The notes under the pieces are model-generated. The model was not told the origin of the DNA. It made no database searches and worked only from the letters and a program-made list of their open reading frames with translations. The translations under genes and the position numbers were made by a program. A stretch of DNA of 34,274 bases from Candidatus Cacconaster merdequi (GTDB taxonomy: Bacteria; Bacteroidota; Bacteroidia; Bacteroidales; UBA932): contig JAGHVK010000030.1 in assembly GCA_018064345.1 (NCBI GenBank), forward strand, positions 1 through 34,274. The letters are read 5' to 3'. Positions 23,641-34,274 of the stretch are shown one piece after another (position 1 is the first letter of the stretch; every line of letters starts with the position of its first letter).

Positions 23641-25296
23641 CTATCTCGCTCCACCTCCAAAGCCACCGCCACTGAAACCGCGGCCGCCACCGAAAGATGC
23701 AGAACCCCCACGGCCGGCCACAGAAGAAGCAGTCTGAACTCTTGCCACAGAATTGACGACACTGGAGCCCATGTTGTTTGAGAAATACAGGACTCTGTTC
23801 ATCACCATATAGTCGTATCCGAATGTATCTTTGAACGCCTTCGGGTCAATATCCTTCAACTCTTTCGCGACTTTCTTGGCTATACCGTACAAAGAAGCGA
23901 AGATAAGATAGTCCTGCCAAAGGATAACCTCAGATGACTTACGCTCTTCTGAAAGGGTGAAATCGCTGAGGAATTTCTTGAATCCGATGACATTGCGGGC
24001 CTGTCTCCTGCCCTGCTCGGTGAACTCGCTGCTGCCAACGAATCCTCCCTTCTGGAGGCGGCTGATACCGGTTGCATTCAAATTCTCAACCCAATTGCTG
24101 ACTCTCCGGGCATTGGCTTTCCGGGAAGACCAGCGGGAAAATTCCTTCTCCTGCAGGATATGGTCCTCACCGCTTGCCTCATAAAGCATATCATAGAAAA
24201 CTTTCTCACCTCCTTCGAGTGATTCCGCCTTCTGGGAAGAAGTGAACGAAATAAGCAGCTTCTGGCGGGAATCAGTGGACACAGAAAGAATGCCCTCTTT
24301 TATCATCTTCAGTATCAAGGCACTGGCAAAATTGGCCTCAGACCCCATCTTGCCACATTTCGAAAGGACATATCGGCTTGGGAAAAGATCACCATCGAAA
24401 GGCACTTCGCGGCTGTAACCTATCCGATTGAGCTTCATAACTCCGAACATATTCTGGTTGCGGCGGCGTACGGAGGTCATCAAGCCACCCACAAGTAAAG
24501 CAAACATTGCGGCAGTGAAGGCAAGCAGGCCACGGTTGCGGCGTCTCTCATTCTCAAGGAACGTGTCGTAATCACTCTCTTCAAAAGCTATCTTGCGTTT
24601 CTCTTCGAAAGTTCCCGGAAGAGTGCTGGTGGTCGAGAAGATTCCCTTATTGAATCTCGCCATCACAATCACGGACGCGAAATCATCCACAAAAGGTTCC
24701 TCGGTATCAGCCACAATCCTGCCATTGTCGAAAAGCACGCTGCCATGATAGCCGAAACCCCAAATGGCAGAATTGTCAGCGTCAAACGAAAGGGAATCAG
24801 CAAGAATGGTCACCCTTGCGTGCTGCGGATATGGGTTGATGCCAGGGGAAACGAACTGCATATGAAGACAGTCGTAATCGTCAAGAGACTTGACAACATT
24901 CGTCATCGTGTATTCCACGGTGAAGAGATGGTTGCCATAGCTGCCGAGTCCCCAGCACAATTCGCAGCCATCCCGCTTGTAAAGGATTCCGCAGCGTCCT
25001 TTCTTCCAGTCAAAGGAGCGGTCGGTGTCCCAGAAATCTTCCGTCAGGAACTCCTGACCGTTTTCAAAGACACGCAGATCCTTGATGACAATGTCGCCAA
25101 GATTTTCCCGTACGAGATACCATTCCGTCCCTTTGTCCACACTCAAATCCCACACTTCCTTCACAAAGGCGGAACCATCTTCCGAGAGAGTTACGGTCAC
25201 GTCTATATCACGCACCACATGTTCCTGTGCGAAAGACAGTGTCGCACATACCGTCAGGAAGAGTACGACAAGAAATATCCTTGAATAATGTTTCAT
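23641..25296 (-). CDS. DUF2207 family membrane protein
   Basis: A 551-residue protein. The signal peptide ends in LSFAQ. An extracytoplasmic beta-rich DUF2207 domain spans ~residues 22-230 and leads to a membrane segment near 250-275 (LLAFTAAMFALLVGG). A cytoplasmic region follows, ending in a Gly-rich tail (GGGRGFSGGGFGGGAR) characteristic of the family. The function of the family is unknown to me; it frequently neighbours LemA, as here. The ATG at 25296 is chosen because it gives a proper signal peptide, with AGGAT before it. It is the last gene of the six-gene run; the hairpin at 25326-25367 lies in its leader. Confidence 0.82.
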   Translation of the reverse strand: MKHYSRIFLVVLFLTVCATLSFAQEHVVRDIDVTVTLSEDGSAFVKEVWDLSVDKGTEWYLVRENLGDIVIKDLRVFENGQEFLTEDFWDTDRSFDWKKGRCGILYKRDGCELCWGLGSYGNHLFTVEYTMTNVVKSLDDYDCLHMQFVSPGINPYPQHARVTILADSLSFDADNSAIWGFGYHGSVLFDNGRIVADTEEPFVDDFASVIVMARFNKGIFSTTSTLPGTFEEKRKIAFEESDYDTFLENERRRNRGLLAFTAAMFALLVGGLMTSVRRRNQNMFGVMKLNRIGYSREVPFDGDLFPSRYVLSKCGKMGSEANFASALILKMIKEGILSVSTDSRQKLLISFTSSQKAESLEGGEKVFYDMLYEASGEDHILQEKEFSRWSSRKANARRVSNWVENLNATGISRLQKGGFVGSSEFTEQGRRQARNVIGFKKFLSDFTLSEERKSSEVILWQDYLIFASLYGIAKKVAKELKDIDPKAFKDTFGYDYMVMNRVLYFSNNMGSSVVNSVARVQTASSVAGRGGSASFGGGRGFSGGGFGGGAR

Positions 25297-25325
25297 ATCC
25301 TGCAAAAAGATGCCCGATGCCTTGG

Positions 25326-25367
25326 AACCAGTTTTGAAATGGTCCTTGGACCCCTTCAAAACCGGTT
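25326..25367. repeat. Long hairpin between lemA and the DUF2207 gene (includes motif copy B)
   Basis: AACCAGTTTTGAA (25326-25338) pairs with TTCAAAACCGGTT (25355-25367) with one mismatch. An inner stem GGTCC/GGACC (25341-25345 with 25348-25352) lies inside. The left side repeats the motif of the TPR leader at 21028-21048. No T tract follows on the minus strand, so it is more likely a processing or stability element, or a partial attenuator, than a terminator. Confidence 0.65.
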
Positions 25368-25380
25368 TTCAGGACAGGTT

Positions 25381-25929
25381 CTATATTTTCATGGAAGGCA
25401 TTTCGCTCTTGCCTGCATTTTCAACAAGATAATCCTTTACAGCAAAGCCAAGGATACCTGCAACGATGGAGCTTGGGAACTGACGGACGACACGGTTGTA
25501 AGAAGTAACGCTGTCGTTGAACACCATACGGCTCATTCGCACCTGATTCTCATACGTATTGATACTGTCCATGGTTTTGACATAAGTATCACTGGCTTTG
25601 AGTTGTGGATATTGCTCTGCGACTACGTTGATGTGATTCATAGCAGTGGACATAAGCTTTTCCTGTTCGTTGGCATCAGCGACTGAACTTGCACCTGTTA
25701 TGGTCTTGCGCTGTGCAATCACGTCCGTGATAGTCTTGTATTCGTAATCAGAGTACGACTTGGTCATTTCGGCCAGAGCCTTGAGTGCATCCCAGCGGCT
25801 TGCCTGCTGGACACCGATCTGGCTGAGTGAATTCTTGCAGATTTCCTCTTTGCTGACAAGATTTCTCTGAACGGAAATCATCCAGAGCACGATTATCGCC
25901 AATATGGCGATTACAATAATAAGTGTCAT
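25381..25929 (-). CDS. lemA: LemA family protein
   Basis: A 182-residue protein with an N-terminal membrane segment (residues ~2-19) followed by a helical LemA domain. Recognisable parts are VQRNLVSKEEICKNSLSQIGVQ, the AEQYPQLKAS block and the RVVRQFPSSIVAGILGF segment near the end. LemA proteins are membrane-anchored with a helical bundle on one side of the membrane; their molecular role is not established. It lies 17 nt after the soluble kinase and 84 nt before the DUF2207 start, with no promoter of its own seen. This links it to the signalling genes upstream. Confidence 0.88.
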   Translation of the reverse strand: MTLIIVIAILAIIVLWMISVQRNLVSKEEICKNSLSQIGVQQASRWDALKALAEMTKSYSDYEYKTITDVIAQRKTITGASSVADANEQEKLMSTAMNHINVVAEQYPQLKASDTYVKTMDSINTYENQVRMSRMVFNDSVTSYNRVVRQFPSSIVAGILGFAVKDYLVENAGKSEMPSMKI

Positions 25930-25946
25930 TTCTTTATTTATTACAA

Positions 25947-26846
25947 TTACATTCTTACTAGGCTTCCTTTCAGGACAGGTATCTTGAATGTCAGAGTCGT
26001 ACCCACTCCGGGAGCTGTATCGACAAGCAGTTCGCCCTTATGCTCTTCCGTAATGATTGAGCGTATGATTCCCATGCCGAGGCCGGTCCCCTGTCCTATT
26101 GGCTTGGTGGTGAAGAAATTGTCGAACAGCTTCTTCTTTATTTCATCTGTCATTCCCATTCCGTTGTCACTTATGCTGATGGCAAGGCCTTCGGACTCCG
26201 CAAAAGTAACTTTCACTGAGATGGTAGGCTGATAGTCCTGCTCGCCACCGGCTGCTCTTTCCTTCACGGTATAACAGGCATTGTTCATCACATTGAGGAC
26301 AGCACGGCTCAGGTCCTGAGGCACCGTCATCAACTTTGGAATGTCAGGCTGGTAATCTTCCTGAATCGAGATATTGAAGCTCTTGTCGTTGGCACGCATG
26401 GCGTGATAGCTGAGCCATACATATTCGTGGACGAGCTGCTGGATATCGGTAGGCAGGAATTCACCCTCCTTGCCGCGGCTCTGAAGAAGGATTCCACGTA
26501 TGATACTGATTGCCCTTTCACCATGTTCCTGGATCTTTCCAAGATTTTCCTTGAGATCGTCGGCAATGTCGCGGATATCATCGGCATCATCTTCATCAAG
26601 ACTGTCAGCACAGTCATCTATCACTTCGCTCAAACTGCCAAGAAGGGTTGTGGACAGCTTGCTGAAGTTTATCACGAAGTTGAGAGGGTTCTGAACTTCG
26701 TGAGCGATACCTGCGCTCAACATACCGAGGGAAGCCAGTTTCTCCTGCTTCTCCAGTTTGCCCTTCATATCGGCGAGTTCTTCGCTGAGCCGGGCTATTT
26801 CATTTTGTAAATCATTGACATTCTGCTCCATTTCCACAAATAGCAT
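25947..26846 (-). CDS. Soluble sensor histidine kinase
   Basis: A 299-residue kinase without membrane segments. An N-terminal coiled coil (~residues 8-38) leads to the H box GIAHEVQNPLNF with phosphoacceptor His49. The ATPase domain shows the N box NNACYTVKE, G1 DNGMGM, F box FFTTKP and G2 GTGLGMGI. The start at 26846 forms a TGATG junction with the kinase gene upstream; the ATG at 26831 (His would be residue 44) is an alternative. The likely phosphate acceptor is the REC-PP2C protein of the same operon (inference). With no sensory domain of its own, it may receive its signal through the neighbouring propeller kinase. Confidence 0.88.
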   Translation of the reverse strand: MLFVEMEQNVNDLQNEIARLSEELADMKGKLEKQEKLASLGMLSAGIAHEVQNPLNFVINFSKLSTTLLGSLSEVIDDCADSLDEDDADDIRDIADDLKENLGKIQEHGERAISIIRGILLQSRGKEGEFLPTDIQQLVHEYVWLSYHAMRANDKSFNISIQEDYQPDIPKLMTVPQDLSRAVLNVMNNACYTVKERAAGGEQDYQPTISVKVTFAESEGLAISISDNGMGMTDEIKKKLFDNFFTTKPIGQGTGLGMGIIRSIITEEHKGELLVDTAPGVGTTLTFKIPVLKGSLVRM

Positions 26847-29488
26847 CAAATAGTGATAATAAATTCAGTATATTCATCCTTGACTGAACGGACAGTAATG
26901 TTGCCATTCATATCCTGGATTATCTGCTGGCCGAGATAAAGGCCGATTCCCGGAGCCTCAGCGGTAGGCTTCGTAGTGAAGAACGGGTCGAATATCTTGT
27001 CCTGTATGCTTTCCTCAATGCCAATGCCGTTGTCATAGACGGACAACTTGACCGGTTCCCCGTTTCCACCGGCCAGGGAGAGTCGGACGGCAGGTGTGTA
27101 TCCGGCATTTCTGCCCACCTTGTCCATCTTCTTCTTCACGGCATAGAAACTGTTCGCCAGCATCGACATTATCACCTTGTTGAACTGTTCCGCCACAAGG
27201 TCAATCGTTATCGGAGACTCAGGCGCATCCAGCTCGAGTTTGATACCCATAGATGAGATGTCATCGGCATAATACTTGCCCGCCACTTCGATATCCTTCT
27301 GACACAAGGCATTGAGATTCACGCTTTCTGTATTTCCGGAGCGTTCCTTGAGCAGTTCCTCCATTGCCTTGAGGATTCTGGTGGTGGATACGCCGTGAAC
27401 CTCTATCTTGGCAAGATTGGTGTTCATCATATCCAGAACATCCATTGAATCCTCGTAATTATCCTCTTCCATATTATCCTTCTCATCTTCAAGATTAGCC
27501 TGAAGATCTTTCGTAAGGCCGATGGAAAGGTGTGAGAAATTGTTGATATAGTTCAAAGGGTTGAGGATTCGGTCGATGAGTCCCTTTGTCAGTTTTCCTA
27601 CCGTCGCCTCCCTTTCCTGCCTGAGCAACTGGCTCTGGGCATCCTTCAATTCGCGTGTACGCTCGTCAACGAGAGTTTCCAGACGCGCCTGCTCCTGACG
27701 AGCACGAATCATCCTTATGCGGAAGAAAGATGCAATACCGCCTGCGATAATCAGGATATAGAAGAGGAGAGCATACCAACTTAAATAGAACGGCACGGGT
27801 ACGGAGAAGCTTATCGGCTCGGATTCGGCAATCTGGCCGTAGGCATCCATAGAACGTGCTGAAAAATGATATTTACCAGGAGTCAGATGGCTGAAAGAAA
27901 GTTCCTGAGACTCGTTCCAACGGGACCATTCGGCATTGTCGTTCAGGCGGTAGCTATACTTCGCCGACCCTATCGGGTCCAGCTTGTCACCGGCTATCAC
28001 AAAACTTGTGTAATCCTCTTCCATTTGGCTGGAGCGCACATAAAGAGCATTCCCGTAAGGTTTCAGGGAGAGCATCCTTTCACGGTCCATGCGGATAAGG
28101 CCGAAACTTCCGCCTACCCAGATCTGACCCTCATTGAGTTCCATCGCTTGAATATTGTATCCGGACAGAGGCTCACACCACAATCTTTCATTATCGGACA
28201 GGTTGTCGCAGATAAGACCCATATTGTCGGAATCGGAATGCCAGTATGAACCGTCGCTTCCCTCAAATTCGAAAAGAAGCGACATATCCGAAGCCTCATC
28301 TATCTTGGCAAACTTGCTGCCACTGGCATTCATAAGATACGTTTCCCTGCCAAGGGTAATGGCCCTGACAGCGCCATCATAGGACTTGAATTTGACAACA
28401 TTCGCAACATCGGCAAGTTTTTCGCTTCTTCCGTCCAGATAGTACCTGTAAATACCGTTCACTTCGCCGGCCAGCACGGATGATGCCGATTCTACGAAAA
28501 CGCTCAAGGTGTGGCGTTCGGTCAGTTGTTTTACGGAAGAGCCTATGCTGAAAAGGCCTTCCGCCGTAGCGGCAAGAGTTGTTGCACCGTCATCGGCCCG
28601 CGCCAGTTGCCAGCAGGCAAGGCTTATCTCCTTCACCGGCTGGAAGCGGTCATTCTCATCCAAGCGGAAAAGGCCCTGCAGGGTACCGACGTACAGAGGC
28701 CCGTTCTTCAGAATGCAGGTAACCTGTCCATCAAGGCCATCTGTAGCGGAGTAGTGGGTATAGACAGGAACGAGGTTCACGACAAAGAGCCCGTTGTCGG
28801 TGGCTCCCCATACACTTCCGCGACCATCGTACGACAAATCATTTACGGTATTGCTGCACAAACCGTCATCGGTTGTCAGTCCGTACAATAGGGTACCGTT
28901 CTCTTTCTCATTGACAGTCAGACCTTCTCCGACTGTTGCATACACCGTGAGTCCTATGTCCGGAACATCCTCTGAAACGGAATTGCCGGAATCGGCCTCA
29001 TTTCCGCCTCTCGCACCGGCAAGAGCAATCTGATTACCGCTTACAGAATAGTCGTTGCCATCTGCGGCAAAGAAACACAGGACACCATTCTTCTCATATA
29101 TCCCGAGAACTTCACCGAATGCCTGCTTCACGTCAAGGTCGCTCGCAATGTATTCAGCTTCCTCTGAATCGCCTGTAGGAAGATACCCCAACAGGTTGTC
29201 GCCGCCGAACCATATCTTCCCGTCAGAAGCCGGATAAACGCTTGTAACTCGCGAAATGGCGGGGGTATGGATTATCCGCCACCGGGCCCCGTCATAAATC
29301 ACAAGACCTTCGAAATTGGCCACGAACACACGTCCTTCACCATCACATTCCACAGCGAAGTTACGGTTGTGCCCCCTGTATTCCAAGGCAGACCAGTTAC
29401 GGAAGAACGGCTTGCCTCCGTCTGAAGCAATCGCTTGAGGCAGAAGGCCTATCAAGCAAAGCAGCAATATTGGTATCTTCTTAGTCAT
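26846..29488 (-). CDS. Two-component propeller histidine kinase lacking the H-box His
   Basis: An 880-residue protein. The signal peptide (TKKIPILLLCLIGLLPQAIA) is followed by a periplasmic region of two-component-regulator propeller type to ~500, then a Y_Y_Y domain (~500-560, with SYRLNDNAEWSRWN and LTPGKYHFSARS). A membrane segment lies at ~566-590, then a coiled coil and the kinase core. The H box reads GLIDRILNPLNYINNF, so the position of the phosphoacceptor His holds Asp639. The ATPase domain is retained: NSFYAVKKK, DNGIGI, DPFFTTKP and PGIGLYLG. It may therefore bind ATP without autophosphorylation on His. The start at 29488 overlaps the upstream stop by 8 nt; the longer frame would run far into that gene. 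Confidence 0.85.
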   Translation of the reverse strand: MTKKIPILLLCLIGLLPQAIASDGGKPFFRNWSALEYRGHNRNFAVECDGEGRVFVANFEGLVIYDGARWRIIHTPAISRVTSVYPASDGKIWFGGDNLLGYLPTGDSEEAEYIASDLDVKQAFGEVLGIYEKNGVLCFFAADGNDYSVSGNQIALAGARGGNEADSGNSVSEDVPDIGLTVYATVGEGLTVNEKENGTLLYGLTTDDGLCSNTVNDLSYDGRGSVWGATDNGLFVVNLVPVYTHYSATDGLDGQVTCILKNGPLYVGTLQGLFRLDENDRFQPVKEISLACWQLARADDGATTLAATAEGLFSIGSSVKQLTERHTLSVFVESASSVLAGEVNGIYRYYLDGRSEKLADVANVVKFKSYDGAVRAITLGRETYLMNASGSKFAKIDEASDMSLLFEFEGSDGSYWHSDSDNMGLICDNLSDNERLWCEPLSGYNIQAMELNEGQIWVGGSFGLIRMDRERMLSLKPYGNALYVRSSQMEEDYTSFVIAGDKLDPIGSAKYSYRLNDNAEWSRWNESQELSFSHLTPGKYHFSARSMDAYGQIAESEPISFSVPVPFYLSWYALLFYILIIAGGIASFFRIRMIRARQEQARLETLVDERTRELKDAQSQLLRQEREATVGKLTKGLIDRILNPLNYINNFSHLSIGLTKDLQANLEDEKDNMEEDNYEDSMDVLDMMNTNLAKIEVHGVSTTRILKAMEELLKERSGNTESVNLNALCQKDIEVAGKYYADDISSMGIKLELDAPESPITIDLVAEQFNKVIMSMLANSFYAVKKKMDKVGRNAGYTPAVRLSLAGGNGEPVKLSVYDNGIGIEESIQDKIFDPFFTTKPTAEAPGIGLYLGQQIIQDMNGNITVRSVKDEYTEFIITI

Positions 29489-31133
29489 AGGCCTCTTTGA
29501 ACAATGTTTCGTAAGGGATGGCCGAGCCGATGTAATTTGCCCATTCATCCTGTGTAAATTCTCTTGTTGCACGGCTGCGGATTGAAGCCGCCATATCGTC
29601 AACGGCAACGTTCATTCTGAGAATCTGACCGTTGCTGCCTCCGCATAGAATCTCCGAACTGCCTGTACGGCAGGTAGAAAGCGGCCAGCCTGTTTCAAAA
29701 TAATATTCAGCCGGTTCCAGATATTCGAACAGTTCCGTTTCAAGTCTGCTGTGAGTTTTCCGACCGGAAGCAGGTTCTGTAAGGTTATACTCCTTGACAG
29801 CCGGGAGATTCCAAATCGACAACGACCTGTCGTAGGATCCGGAAATGAGAACCTCTCCCACCGTGACAAGATTGATTATCCTGCTCGTGTGCCCTGACAA
29901 CAGAACTTCCGTGCCTTCCGCATTGAGCCATACCAGACTGCCATCTGCACACCCAAGGAAAGTCTCGTCATACTCCTTGTCGTAATATGCGGCAGTGACT
30001 GTCTTGCTGACAAGAGGCGTTTTCCGACTGAGGATTCCAGCATTGGAAAGTTCATAGTAGGATCCGTCCTCAAAGAAGAGCTGAACATAGCCGGGCCTGC
30101 GCATGGCTGCCGACAACTTGCCAGGGAGCGCAGACGGTTCTGATGCAGTCTTCATCGACAGATTATACCAGCAATAAGATTTCTCTCCCAGAACGAGCAG
30201 AACCTTTCCATTGATGTTGAACACATATCGGTAAGAATCTTCCGGCAGCTCAACCAGTCTTGTCTGACGGTTATAATCCACGACACACAGCGGTCCGTGG
30301 AGGGAAAGTGCATAGACAGATTCCTTGTCAGCATAAACGGCCCTGAAATTATAGGCGCTGTTCTGCAGCAGGACTTTGTCACCACGTCCCTGCAAGTCGC
30401 GCAGTTCTATCTCGCCATAATCGGAAACAGCGACATACTTGTCGTCATCCAGAGTCTGGAGGGCCGTCACACCGCCCCTCTGCTGCATAGTCGTCAGCCG
30501 CTGGGCTCCGGAACTCGTGGAGAGAGCGTTGAAAAGGTCGTACTGATATGTATTGCCTTTATACCGTTTCATAAAGTGCCAGCCGGCATACGCCAGCATC
30601 GATGCAACTTCAGTATGGTTGCCCTGATGCTGGACAGAAGAAGAATAGCCCAGCGTACGGCCGAGCGCCCTCATACTCAAGGTATCGGTCATACTCTTCG
30701 CACGAGTGGCCTCGTCTCGCTGGATTTCAGCCTCTTTCTGATGAGCGAGCGCCATCTCTCTCTGAATCTGGGCCTCTCTGGCGGAAGATTCAGCCTGCTG
30801 CGCCCACTGGACAGCCTTGCTCTCCGCCTCCCTGGCAGCCCGGCTTTCCTGCTCCGCCCTGTCCCTCATAAGAAGTGCAAGCTGAGACTGCTCTTCAGCA
30901 CGGTCCCTCTGCCTGTCGGATATAGCTTTCTGCTGATAAGCAATGGCTTCCATCTGCTGGCTCACTCTCTTTACTACCGCAGCATCGGATTCGTTGCTCC
31001 GCAACTCCTCCATAAGTTCCGCATTGTCTCCTTTTGCGGAACTGCGGCCGATAAAGAAAGCCCCGGCAAGAACTGCAACACCGACAGTTCCTCCAATCAG
31101 CCAATTTCTGTACTTATTGAAGAAAGAGGTCAT
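29481..31133 (-). CDS. Membrane-anchored coiled-coil beta-propeller (WD40-like) protein
   Basis: A 550-residue protein with one N-terminal membrane segment (~residues 12-29). A long charged coiled coil rich in Ala, Glu, Gln and Arg (~37-150, with repeated EAEIQRDEA-type units) follows. The C-terminal ~350 residues form WD40-like blades, the clearest being LSGHTSRIINLVTVGEVLISGSYDRSLSIWNL. The N-terminal anchor with no cleavable signal and the short basic start suggest either orientation; a cytoplasmic propeller is my guess from the NKYR start. It begins at a TAATG junction with the REC-PP2C gene. A scaffold or sensor role for the phosphatase and kinases is inference. Confidence 0.75.
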   Translation of the reverse strand: MTSFFNKYRNWLIGGTVGVAVLAGAFFIGRSSAKGDNAELMEELRSNESDAAVVKRVSQQMEAIAYQQKAISDRQRDRAEEQSQLALLMRDRAEQESRAAREAESKAVQWAQQAESSAREAQIQREMALAHQKEAEIQRDEATRAKSMTDTLSMRALGRTLGYSSSVQHQGNHTEVASMLAYAGWHFMKRYKGNTYQYDLFNALSTSSGAQRLTTMQQRGGVTALQTLDDDKYVAVSDYGEIELRDLQGRGDKVLLQNSAYNFRAVYADKESVYALSLHGPLCVVDYNRQTRLVELPEDSYRYVFNINGKVLLVLGEKSYCWYNLSMKTASEPSALPGKLSAAMRRPGYVQLFFEDGSYYELSNAGILSRKTPLVSKTVTAAYYDKEYDETFLGCADGSLVWLNAEGTEVLLSGHTSRIINLVTVGEVLISGSYDRSLSIWNLPAVKEYNLTEPASGRKTHSRLETELFEYLEPAEYYFETGWPLSTCRTGSSEILCGGSNGQILRMNVAVDDMAASIRSRATREFTQDEWANYIGSAIPYETLFKEAYD

Positions 31134-32296
31134 TATTTCCTTCTGATTACAAGTTGAGTCACGTCATCGCTCTGTTCAGCCTCTCCGGCAAACTCCTTCA
31201 CTTTCTCATTGATTTTGTCCACAATCTCCTTGCTCGTGCATCCTTTCAGTGAAGCAAGCGTCTCTTCCAGCCTAGGCTCACCGAACTGGCCGTGATTGAT
31301 ATCTTCCGCCTCAGTGACTCCGTCCGTGAACATCACAAGCGCATCACCGCTGCCAAGCGTCAGGGTATTGCTCTTGTATGGCATACCACCCATCGCACCA
31401 AGCGCGATGTTCCGCTCCTTAGGAAGACATTCCACAGTACCGTCCGCTCTCAGGATATATGGAGGGTTATGACCGGCATTGGTATAGTCGATGACTCCGG
31501 ATTCCAAGTCGTACACTCCGTAGAAGGTCGTGACGAACATTGAGTTGAGGCTCTCTTCGCTCAAAAGGTCGTTCACTTTGACGATACAGTCCGCCGAATG
31601 AATGTCGCGGGTACCGTATGCCTTTATCATAGTACGGCTTACAGCCATGAAGAGGGCAGCAGGGACACCCTTGCCGCTCACGTCCGCCAGTGTGAATCCG
31701 AAATGAGTGTCATCGATAGGGAAGAAATCGTAGAAATCGCCTCCGACCTCCTTGGCCGCCATCATACTTGCATAGATATCGACGCTGCCGCTGCGTTCCA
31801 TACCCAAATCGAATGAGCGCGGCAGAATGGCGTGCTGTATCGCTCTTGCTGCAGAGAGGTCGCTCTGTATGTCGACGAGCTGCTTGTGCTCCTTCTGGGT
31901 GCTGCGCACGAACTCAATCTGGGCGATGGCGTTGTCTATCGTCCGCTGAAGGTCGTCCAGGTCTATCGGTTTGGTGGCGAAATCGAAGGCACCGTTGTTC
32001 ATTGCGGTGCGTATGTTGTCCATATCGCCGTATGCGCTGACCATAATGCATTTCTGGGCAGGATTCCTCATTTCGTTGATCTTGCTCAGGAGAGTCAGAC
32101 CATCCATCTCAGGCATATTTATATCGGAAAGTACAATATCGATATCCGGATGTTTAACGAGCTCCTTCAAAGCCTCCAGCCCATTGTGGGCAAAGAAGAA
32201 TTCATATTCACCGTGACGTATCTTTCTGCGGAAATACTGAGTCAGGAGGACCTCCAGATCCAACTCATCATCAACACTTAAAATTTTAACTGCCAT
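31133..32296 (-). CDS. Response regulator with PP2C (SpoIIE/RsbU-type) phosphatase domain
   Basis: A 387-residue cytoplasmic protein. The N-terminal REC domain (residues 1-120) has acidic Asp9/Asp10 (SVDDE), phosphoacceptor Asp58 (SDINMPEMDG) and the conserved KPID. A helical linker (~125-180, QSDLSAARAIQHAILP) connects to a SpoIIE-type PP2C domain with metal-binding motifs GGDFYDFF, DVSGKG, FTDGVTEA and SDDVTQLV. Such proteins dephosphorylate anti-sigma antagonists in the partner-switching systems known; no STAS or anti-sigma gene is in the window. The ATG at 32296 is chosen because it begins the REC domain and lies ~27 nt after the promoter start. It is first in the operon. Confidence 0.92.
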   Translation of the reverse strand: MAVKILSVDDELDLEVLLTQYFRRKIRHGEYEFFFAHNGLEALKELVKHPDIDIVLSDINMPEMDGLTLLSKINEMRNPAQKCIMVSAYGDMDNIRTAMNNGAFDFATKPIDLDDLQRTIDNAIAQIEFVRSTQKEHKQLVDIQSDLSAARAIQHAILPRSFDLGMERSGSVDIYASMMAAKEVGGDFYDFFPIDDTHFGFTLADVSGKGVPAALFMAVSRTMIKAYGTRDIHSADCIVKVNDLLSEESLNSMFVTTFYGVYDLESGVIDYTNAGHNPPYILRADGTVECLPKERNIALGAMGGMPYKSNTLTLGSGDALVMFTDGVTEAEDINHGQFGEPRLEETLASLKGCTSKEIVDKINEKVKEFAGEAEQSDDVTQLVIRRK

Positions 32297-32329: not shown

Positions 32330-32361
32330 CAAATATACCTTAATTTGAAAGAACGGCCAAA
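32330..32361 (-). promoter_or_regulatory. Promoter of the six-gene signalling operon
   Basis: Minus-strand TTTG (32361-32358), 20 bp, then TATATTTG (32337-32330): with the leftward promoter near 100, one of the two best matches in the window. It gives a leader of ~27 nt before the REC-PP2C ATG. Confidence 0.75.
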
Positions 32362-32459: not shown

Positions 32460-32486
32460 TAGTTTATGACTACAAAACGAACAACG

Positions 32487-34274
32487 ATGTCAAGAGCCAA
32501 ACTATACGCACTTATTCCATTATTTGTATTGCTTTCAACAGCACCGATGAACGGACAGTCATCCGCCGGGCTTTATCAGGAGGCTGAAAGAGCGTACAAT
32601 ATGGGACGTTTCGAACTGGTGGATTCGCTCCTTTCGGGTCAGGCGGCCCTGATGAAGGGAGATGACGGAGTCAAGGCATACCGTCTTCTGGCTCTCAGCC
32701 GCATATATCTGGATGACATTCCCGGCGCCGAAAACTACATCCGCAGCCTTCTGACTGCAAACCCATATTATACGCCCTACGGCGACACCCCACGGTTCAC
32801 CGAACTGGTGAACGTCATAAAGAGAGGAAGTTCCACAACCATCACCACTGCATCACAGCAAGCCGAAACCATAGAGGAGGCCCCTGTGCCCGTCACTATC
32901 ATTACAGAAGAGATGCTCAGAAGCATCGGGGCCAGGAACTTGAAAGAGGCTCTTATGGCTTTCGTGCCCGGTATGACAGACGTAGCCAACAACGAGGAGA
33001 TGAACGTGGCTATGAGAGGAATCTACTCTTCCGGACAGGAGAAGATTCTGATTCTGCTGAACGGTCACAGGATGAACAGTTACTCCACCAACGTAGCCGC
33101 GCCTGACTTTTCTCTGTCGCTTGAGAAAGTGAAGCAAATAGAGGTGCTCCGTGGCCCGGCCTCTTCTATCTACGGAGGAGTCGCACTTACGGGCGTGGTG
33201 AACTTGATTACGAAGGATGGAGGTGACATCGATGGCATGAGCGCCAGGGCCTCTGTCGGAAACTACGGCCAGGTCAAAGGGGACATACTCTTCGGCAAGA
33301 CATATATGGACATCAACGTCATGGCCTGGGCGAGCGTCTACAGCAGCGCCGGTGAGAAGATTCATCTGAAAGAGTCTGAACAGCCATACGCGACCCAGCC
33401 CGTCGAAGGAGACATCATCATAGGAGGTTACAACCACCAGCCTTCATACGATGGCGGCATAAGCCTGAAGTCGGGCAAAGTATCCGCCTTCTTCAACCGA
33501 CGTTTTTCCAAGGCGGTTGCTCCTTATTCCCTGAGTTTCTTCTTCGCCCCTTATTCGTACGACAGATACCGCAAGTGGAACAGCAATACCCCGGGATACG
33601 CTGTCACATCAGACAATGCCGAGGTGTCCTACGCCTCAAAAGCCGGCAGACTGTCCTGGCAGGCCAAGCTGTTCTACGACCATCAGGTGCAGCAGCGATA
33701 CCAAGTCAGCGGTGACGTGGTGCCGGAGGTAGGATTCAATGACATCATCCCGAACGGAGTGGAGGATGTAGTGGTGAAGATGTACAACGGAGGCTTCCAG
33801 AGCGTGAACTGGAGCGAGAATATGGTCGGCGCGAAATTCCAGGGCGGACTCGACTACAAGTTGGGAGAAAACCATTCCGGCAACATAACTTTCGGTGCTG
33901 ACGCAGGTTTCTTCAGCCTGCTCGATGCCACCTATATGGAAGGAATCGACTATGACCTGCTCATCAAGACGTACAACGATGAGAAAGTGCTCAATACGGG
34001 CAAGGAGAAAAGCGCTGACGCATACGTACAGGTAAAGCACAAGGCAGGCAGTCATTTCATCCTGAACGCCGGCTTGAGATACGACTTCAAGCCCCGCAAG
34101 AACGGAATGACCATAAATGACTTCTCACCTCGTCTGGCATTGATCTACATCAATCCGAGATTCGACTTGAAGGTCAGTTACGCAAAATCATTCGTAGATG
34201 CACCGTATTTCTACCGCAACAACACCCTTGACATAAACTTCGGCGACGAAAGTATGCGTCCGGAATATATGAAC
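32487..34274 (+). CDS. TonB-dependent outer-membrane receptor, 3' end beyond window
   Basis: A partial protein of 596 codons, open to the window edge. The signal peptide ends near APMNGQ. An N-terminal helical region of ~100 residues (GLYQEAERAYNMGRFELVDS, reading like a TPR pair) precedes the plug domain, which contains APVPVTIITEEML, NVAMRGIYSSGQEKILILLNGHRMN, IEVLRGPASSIYGGVALTGVVNLIT. Barrel strands follow (LNAGLRYDFKPR, LKVSYAKSFVDAPYFYR). It resembles the family that imports metal-chelates or cobalamin-type ligands, but the substrate is unknown. The first ATG (32466) would be almost leaderless given the promoter, so 32487 is preferred. No stop codon is present in frame. Confidence 0.88.
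   Translation, partial: MSRAKLYALIPLFVLLSTAPMNGQSSAGLYQEAERAYNMGRFELVDSLLSGQAALMKGDDGVKAYRLLALSRIYLDDIPGAENYIRSLLTANPYYTPYGDTPRFTELVNVIKRGSSTTITTASQQAETIEEAPVPVTIITEEMLRSIGARNLKEALMAFVPGMTDVANNEEMNVAMRGIYSSGQEKILILLNGHRMNSYSTNVAAPDFSLSLEKVKQIEVLRGPASSIYGGVALTGVVNLITKDGGDIDGMSARASVGNYGQVKGDILFGKTYMDINVMAWASVYSSAGEKIHLKESEQPYATQPVEGDIIIGGYNHQPSYDGGISLKSGKVSAFFNRRFSKAVAPYSLSFFFAPYSYDRYRKWNSNTPGYAVTSDNAEVSYASKAGRLSWQAKLFYDHQVQQRYQVSGDVVPEVGFNDIIPNGVEDVVVKMYNGGFQSVNWSENMVGAKFQGGLDYKLGENHSGNITFGADAGFFSLLDATYMEGIDYDLLIKTYNDEKVLNTGKEKSADAYVQVKHKAGSHFILNAGLRYDFKPRKNGMTINDFSPRLALIYINPRFDLKVSYAKSFVDAPYFYRNNTLDINFGDESMRPEYMN

Follow-up and report, generated by a model that had tools for sequence, protein, structure and literature searches.

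FecA-type transducers are TonB receptors that carry an N-terminal STN domain and are genetically tied to FecR and an extracytoplasmic function (ECF) sigma factor. On the cytoplasmic side, HsbR–HsbA and CrsR–CrsA of Pseudomonas and Shewanella show how a regulator joining a receiver domain (REC) to a PP2C phosphatase can connect a STAS anti-sigma antagonist with two-component input, as described in the accessible part of PMC6482189. The REC–RsbW fusion presented in the available portion of PMC12826045 is distinct from the arrangement considered here. Two pseudo-kinases are also close precedents in the sections of their papers open to us: DivL of Caulobacter keeps the DHp–ATPase fold with its phosphoacceptor His replaced and acts beside a true kinase (PMC4211667), and ChrS, in the ChrS/HrrS pair of Corynebacterium, heterodimerises as a pseudo-kinase with another kinase (PMC9491836). 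The window analysed here is a 34,274-nucleotide (nt) stretch of Candidatus Cacconaster merdequi (Bacteroidales; contig JAGHVK010000030.1, C52 in our numbering), from an assembly of 1.9 Mb that is 84% complete. Comparison of gene neighbourhoods indicates that this window holds a conserved module of five genes, encoding a REC–PP2C phosphatase, a membrane anchor with a WD40 propeller, a propeller sensor with a kinase-like tail, a soluble histidine kinase and a TonB-dependent receptor (Table 1).

A search of named genomes with the tail of the propeller protein gave 358 relatives, of which the best 80 were retained. The open reading frames (ORFs) of these 80 Bacteroidales loci, which include Bacteroides fragilis Q1F2 and Prevotella ruminicola, were searched with profiles, and gene order was scored within 9 kb. 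The phosphatase, anchor, propeller sensor and soluble kinase are all present in 74 of the 80 loci, and all five genes in 70. The order phosphatase–anchor–propeller protein–kinase–receptor is contained in 68 loci; in 59 the five genes lie in this order on one strand and are the sole recognised genes within 9 kb. The median junctions along this order are −4, −8, +5 and −4 nt, where each ORF was taken from its first possible start and overlaps are possibly overstated. The receptor gene lies within 9 kb in 75 loci, and in most relatives it closes the module. One locus (L093) shows a different rearrangement with the gene set kept. Seven loci (L046, L056, L061, L065, L098, L104 and L112) are short of at least one of the five genes in the DNA examined; the first three end at contig edges, and L065 is without the TonB receptor.

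The sequence-only reading had drawn the unit differently, as a six-gene module in which LemA and a DUF2207 protein follow the four signalling genes. Its core stands, since the four signalling genes form one conserved unit. LemA and DUF2207, however, were found by the ORF profile searches in none of the 80 module loci; at least 6 kb of DNA downstream of the soluble kinase was available in 64 of the 76 loci that have this gene. The six-gene order is thus not conserved in related genomes, an outcome that the sequence-only reading had itself named as refuting it, and the neighbourhood comparison refutes it as a general system. In place of the two envelope proteins that had been named, it is the TonB receptor that is conserved as envelope partner. 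LemA occurs in 37 of 40 genomes of the genus, with DUF2207 directly behind it in 29 of 30 loci (the window counted; the remaining locus is cut by a contig end), and this core pair resides apart from the module. LemA and the module were both found in three further members of the genus, G517, G522 and G529, where they lie on separate contigs, and the module is upstream of LemA in none of the seven relatives examined (L211–L217). The gene close upstream of LemA is TypA in L211, L212 and L217 and resembles a D-2-hydroxyacid dehydrogenase gene in L213 and L215; the neighbours in L214 and L216 were assigned no name. The far side of DUF2207 in L211 and L212 is like that of the window, with XerD, endonuclease III, an FtsE-like ATPase and others, and a typA-like fragment and the dehydrogenase of the window's own genome lie on contig C113, away from the window's LemA. 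Because the relatives have other genes upstream of LemA, the contact between module and LemA is local to the window's lineage. The gap of 17 nt between kinase and LemA on the same strand makes co-transcription possible in that lineage; a six-gene module that includes LemA and DUF2207 is nonetheless almost certainly wrong. Judged from these neighbourhoods, the two are an independent core pair of the genus and do not belong to the signalling module.

The sensor itself shows the most distinctive feature of the module. In alignments of the H-box and ATP site, from which L034 was excluded as lying on the same contig as L054, the phosphoacceptor His of the propeller sensor is replaced by Asp in 82 of 82 proteins. 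The surrounding motif GLIDRILNP is invariant in the same set, as are the ATP-site residues. The soluble kinase carries the phosphoacceptor His in 78 of 78 proteins, and its ATP-site motifs (N, G1 and G2) are complete in 77, the one other row being gapped at G2. Of the two kinases counted in the sequence-only reading, one is therefore a phosphorylatable soluble kinase and the other an Asp-for-His pseudo-kinase. With no H-box His, the propeller protein is not a classical sensor histidine kinase; its DHp–ATPase fold with a replaced phosphoacceptor is that of a DivL-type pseudo-kinase, with Asp and not Tyr at this position. Pfam finds neither a REC nor an AraC domain in the propeller protein, and the single-chain layout of a hybrid two-component system (HTCS) is not present.

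These invariant residues bear on three other explanations of the pseudo-kinase. First, it could be a decaying kinase retained in the operon by chance, as the loss of the phosphoacceptor His and three loci with a sensor and no soluble kinase nearby might suggest. The H-box of such a protein should drift, yet GLIDRILNP does not vary, and each of the 21 Asp-type loci from wider families likewise has Asp at the position, which makes decay most improbable. Second, it could be a GHKL kinase of the Ser/Thr type, comparable to RsbW or the mitochondrial dehydrogenase kinases, that acts directly on STAS or another protein. The fold matches include pyruvate dehydrogenase kinase chains, and the ATP site is kept despite the missing phosphoacceptor His. 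GHKL kinases of the Ser/Thr type use a Glu four residues before the N-box Asn; this Glu is absent here, the position being Ser in 74 of 82 proteins, and many clusters have a separate RsbW-like gene, so that this explanation is very doubtful. Lastly, it could be a non-enzymatic docking sensor: by binding the phosphorylated REC–PP2C protein or the soluble kinase, it would adjust the activity of this partner allosterically. DivL ranks with the best fold matches and, in the accessible text of PMC4211667, has Tyr for His and is without kinase or phosphatase activity. The same text reports that DivL binds an ATP analogue only weakly, whereas the invariant ATP-site residues of the module sensor suggest that nucleotide binding is used; a docking role of this kind is unlikely.

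To compare the sensor with its His-type relatives, we used 39 loci (L128–L166) from the family and order searches, a set that shares five members with the 80 loci and also contains the window; one flank is shortened in L148 and L165. A soluble His-type kinase lies within 1.5 kb in 18 of the 21 Asp-type propeller loci, whereas none of the 18 His-type propeller kinases has a second soluble kinase within this distance (Fisher p = 2.7e-8, uncorrected for kinship). For two of the three Asp-type loci without such a neighbour, G016 (L147) and G645 (L154), a His-type soluble kinase is encoded on a different contig; in the third, G036 (L146, cut by a contig end), a short kinase-like match with an unmatched H-box pattern lies on another contig. 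Six His-type clusters (L218–L223) all encode an anchor-like protein of about 1040 residues, a TonB receptor, a HEAT-repeat permease, a REC–PP2C protein and a STAS protein, and five of them an RsbW-like protein. The Asp-type cluster L177 has the same partners. The simplest reading of these alignments and neighbourhoods would be that a single sensor kinase divided in two, one part keeping the sensor but no phosphate site and the other keeping the kinase but no sensor.

Two cluster forms were observed beside these. In another family, L172 (6984–10847) and L174 (7797–11679) are compact clusters of STAS, RsbW, a short Asp-type pseudo-kinase without a propeller, a soluble kinase and REC–PP2C, and are perhaps a minimal core. 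In the larger clusters (L218–L223, L177 and L036), a permease-like protein of about 1000 residues with HEAT repeats is encoded between the TonB receptor and the propeller kinase; the L177 protein matches MFS_1 and HEAT_2 in Pfam.

Regarding the output, the phosphoacceptor of REC and the metal-binding acidic residues of PP2C are invariant in 77 of 77 proteins. The REC–PP2C protein of the window ends with its SpoIIE domain at residue 387 and has no C-terminal kinase/anti-sigma domain. The phosphatase and anchor genes of B. fragilis are separated by a STAS gene and an RsbW-like gene; the STAS protein matches the NCBIfam anti-sigma factor antagonist model above its cut-off, and RsbW models match the other protein below theirs. 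Several other families have both STAS and RsbW-like genes beside the cluster. On contig C113, the window's own genome encodes an RsbW-like protein and a STAS protein; another STAS gene lies just behind a second PP2C on contig C119, and a third STAS match is inside a 596-residue frame. RsbW of the C113 type occurs in 31 of 40 genomes of the genus, including all five with the module. From this distribution of genes, a partner switch acting in trans is likely in this genome. Both contigs have further neighbours of their own. On C113 (L127, 5537–10483), the STAS gene, an antiporter-like membrane protein gene and the RsbW-like gene form another partner-switch-like cluster, beside which two genes resemble, by inspection, a ppGpp synthetase and an HD hydrolase. 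On C119 (L041, 645–9826), the second PP2C, of a membrane type, and its STAS gene stand beside an ORF of 2442 residues that looks like a non-ribosomal peptide synthetase (NRPS).

The envelope parts are the anchor and the receptor. The predicted structure of the anchor has a mean predicted local distance difference test (pLDDT) score of 85.1, and the protein is homologous to the C-terminal half of nSTAND1–transmembrane (TM)–coiled coil–WD40 proteins. Pfam shows the nSTAND1 nucleoside triphosphatase (NTPase) domain in the relatives L036 and L039 and finds none in the window anchor. A basic stretch precedes the TM helix in nine of nine nSTAND1-type relatives, which would put their NTPase inside and their propeller outside. 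Were the window anchor oriented likewise, its propeller would be in the periplasm, in one compartment with the Reg_prop propeller of the sensor and the N-terminus of the receptor. The receptor N-terminus is conserved and TPR-like. The B. fragilis receptor matches TPR_4 at 28.2 bits, over the Pfam cut-off, and TPR is weak or silent by Pfam in five of the six N-termini tested, the window included. Pfam finds no STN domain in these six N-termini, nor in three receptors. Behind the receptor gene, 34 of 78 receptor loci have a one-module NRPS-like ORF (AMP-binding and PP-binding) at most 3 kb away, for example L109 (14241–16670, with a thioesterase too) and L167 (12897–15335); none was seen in the window.

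Taken together, a split sensor kinase probably drives a REC–PP2C partner switch beside an outer-membrane receptor, a model built on gene content and conserved residues that we hold with moderate confidence. The pseudo-kinase and the soluble kinase would pair by way of their matching DHp helices, and the signal read by the propeller would control phosphorylation of the soluble kinase's His; the ATPase domain of the pseudo-kinase itself may phosphorylate this His in trans. The phosphate would then move to REC and switch PP2C, which would dephosphorylate a STAS protein, so that an RsbW-like partner changes what it binds. In addition, the periplasmic N-terminus of the receptor and the propeller of the anchor may convey outer-membrane status to the sensor. 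Because the anchor, the sensor and the receptor N-terminus could share the periplasm, a bolder form of the model can be drawn, in which the module is a trans-envelope machine that differs from the cell-surface signalling described so far: the periplasmic TPR-like domain of the TonB receptor would touch both the tethered WD40 propeller and the periplasmic Reg_prop sensor, sensor and soluble kinase would form an obligate mixed pair with the sensor ATPase phosphorylating the kinase's His, the output would be the phosphatase partner switch, and the pair would have arisen when the ordinary propeller kinase in an ancestral, nSTAND-linked cluster was split. We consider this fuller form doubtful and put it forward tentatively.

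Several observations weigh against the split-kinase partner switch. L098, L104 and L112 have an Asp-type sensor without a soluble kinase or phosphatase nearby, and the His-type propeller kinase of L222 does have a second kinase, about 10 kb away. STAS is near only five and RsbW near only three of the 80 loci, neither is in the window, and most genomes of the genus with an RsbW-like gene lack a detected module. Within the envelope, the charges of the window anchor leave its topology undecided, and the TPR match of the window receptor is weak, at 11.8 bits.

The module is more widespread than a single-sequence search with the anchor had suggested: the extreme rarity that this search indicated (two of 149 family genomes) was overturned by a profile of the pseudo-kinase tail. 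At E ≤ 1e-40, and with His-type kinases included, the profile matches 25 of 299 family genomes, 14 of them at 288 bits or more and 11 at only 174–196 bits; G224, the one genome examined among these eleven, is of the His type. An order-wide search at the same threshold, again including His-type kinases, matches 50 of 393 genomes, and a class-wide search at E ≤ 1e-55 matches five of 395, four of which (the window's own genome counted) have the same gene order. Beyond this genome, wider neighbourhoods were taken from 31 hand-chosen stretches (8 + 14 + 9). The module was detected in five genomes of the genus. In a tree of the pseudo-kinase tail, the window stands beside Candidatus Egerieousia with support of 87/77, which is not strong, and outside a 16-row clade (100/99) that contains four genus-mates. 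Because the tree splits the window from these genus-mates, separate acquisition or loss of the module is likely.

Within the window, the six genes and junctions given by the sequence-only reading are all present on the minus strand. The phosphatase and anchor genes join at TAATG, the anchor and sensor genes overlap by 8 nt, and the sensor and soluble kinase genes join at TGATG. The range it gave, 25296–32296, covers all six gene starts; it ends at the start codon of DUF2207 and leaves the coding sequence of that gene outside. Its gene set also omitted the receptor gene on the plus strand, a member of the module. Upstream of the phosphatase gene is a TTTG-N20-TATATTTG site, which fits the Bacteroidales-type promoter consensus and is taken to be promoter-like; the window has two such sites against 0.36 expected, and at least two occur in five of 100 shuffles. 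The hairpin reported ahead of DUF2207 is also present, with arms at 25326–25345 and 25348–25367 (z = −4.3; none of 200 shuffles is equally stable). It has no T-tract and is perhaps an attenuator or processing site. A dispersed repeat was ruled out, its own two arms being the sole matches in the genome.

Table 1. Features of the window, listed in module order and followed by neighbouring elements.
Feature	Position	Strand	Remarks
REC–PP2C (SpoIIE-type) phosphatase, output protein	31133..32296	−	Pfam Response_reg and SpoIIE
Anchor: TM helix, coiled coil of about 105 residues, WD40 propeller	29481..31133	−	No nSTAND NTPase
Propeller sensor with pseudo-kinase tail	26846..29488	−	Reg_prop, Y_Y_Y, TM, DHp with Asp for His, HATPase; ATP site intact
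Asp639 codon at the phosphoacceptor position of the propeller sensor (GLIDRILNP)	27572..27574	−	
Soluble histidine kinase (HisKA–HATPase)	25947..26846	−	Without sensor domain; His49 present
TonB-dependent receptor, TPR-like N-terminus	32466..34274	+	Divergent in the window; contig end at 34274 cuts the gene
LemA	25381..25929	−	Neighbour, judged outside the module
DUF2207 protein	23641..25296	−	Partner of LemA, judged outside the module; ATG at 25296
Promoter-like site TTTG-N20-TATATTTG	32330..32361	−	33 nt ahead of the phosphatase ATG

The sequence-only reading had held that the combination was not a described system. In the open-access literature, subscription papers being mostly outside this scope, we found no description of the four-gene signalling unit or of the five-gene cassette, in agreement with that view. 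The module and the HsbR/CrsR regulators have the REC–PP2C architecture in common. In the accessible account of HsbR, this protein has a third, kinase/anti-sigma domain and receives its input from the HptB phosphorelay, whereas the module protein ends after PP2C, RsbW-like proteins are separate, and the input would come from a pseudo-kinase with a soluble kinase. DivL shares the altered phosphoacceptor and differs in having Tyr instead of Asp, in its weak ATP binding and, as far as the available text of PMC4211667 describes it, in having no linked set of partner genes for a propeller sensor and a PP2C output. ChrS is like the module sensor in its pairing with a second kinase; the form described in the accessible part of PMC9491836 is a laboratory-made mutant whose ATPase domain is broken, whereas the module sensor is a fixed natural state in which the ATPase is kept and the His is lost. 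In the portions of the literature seen, these published pseudo-histidine kinases are single cases, whereas the module has a widespread sensor with an invariant Asp for His and a dedicated partner kinase. The nSTAND1–TM–coiled coil–WD40 clusters of other Bacteroidota (L036 and L039) are similar in combining a TonB receptor, a propeller kinase, REC–PP2C and usually RsbW and STAS. They differ by an NTPase on the anchor and a HEAT-repeat permease gene, neither of which is in the window, and many have an undivided His-type propeller kinase. This undivided version in sister clusters is a natural control, and how a kinase without a phosphate site transmits a signal becomes a directly testable question. 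For Bacteroidales of the gut and rumen, the module would offer a sensory route into partner switching. Finally, it resembles FecA-type systems in that an outer-membrane TonB receptor is genetically tied to a signalling cascade, and differs from them in that its receptor is TPR-like with no STN domain found by Pfam and the cascade is of the two-component/PP2C type. The module may be an alternative to FecA-type receptor signalling.
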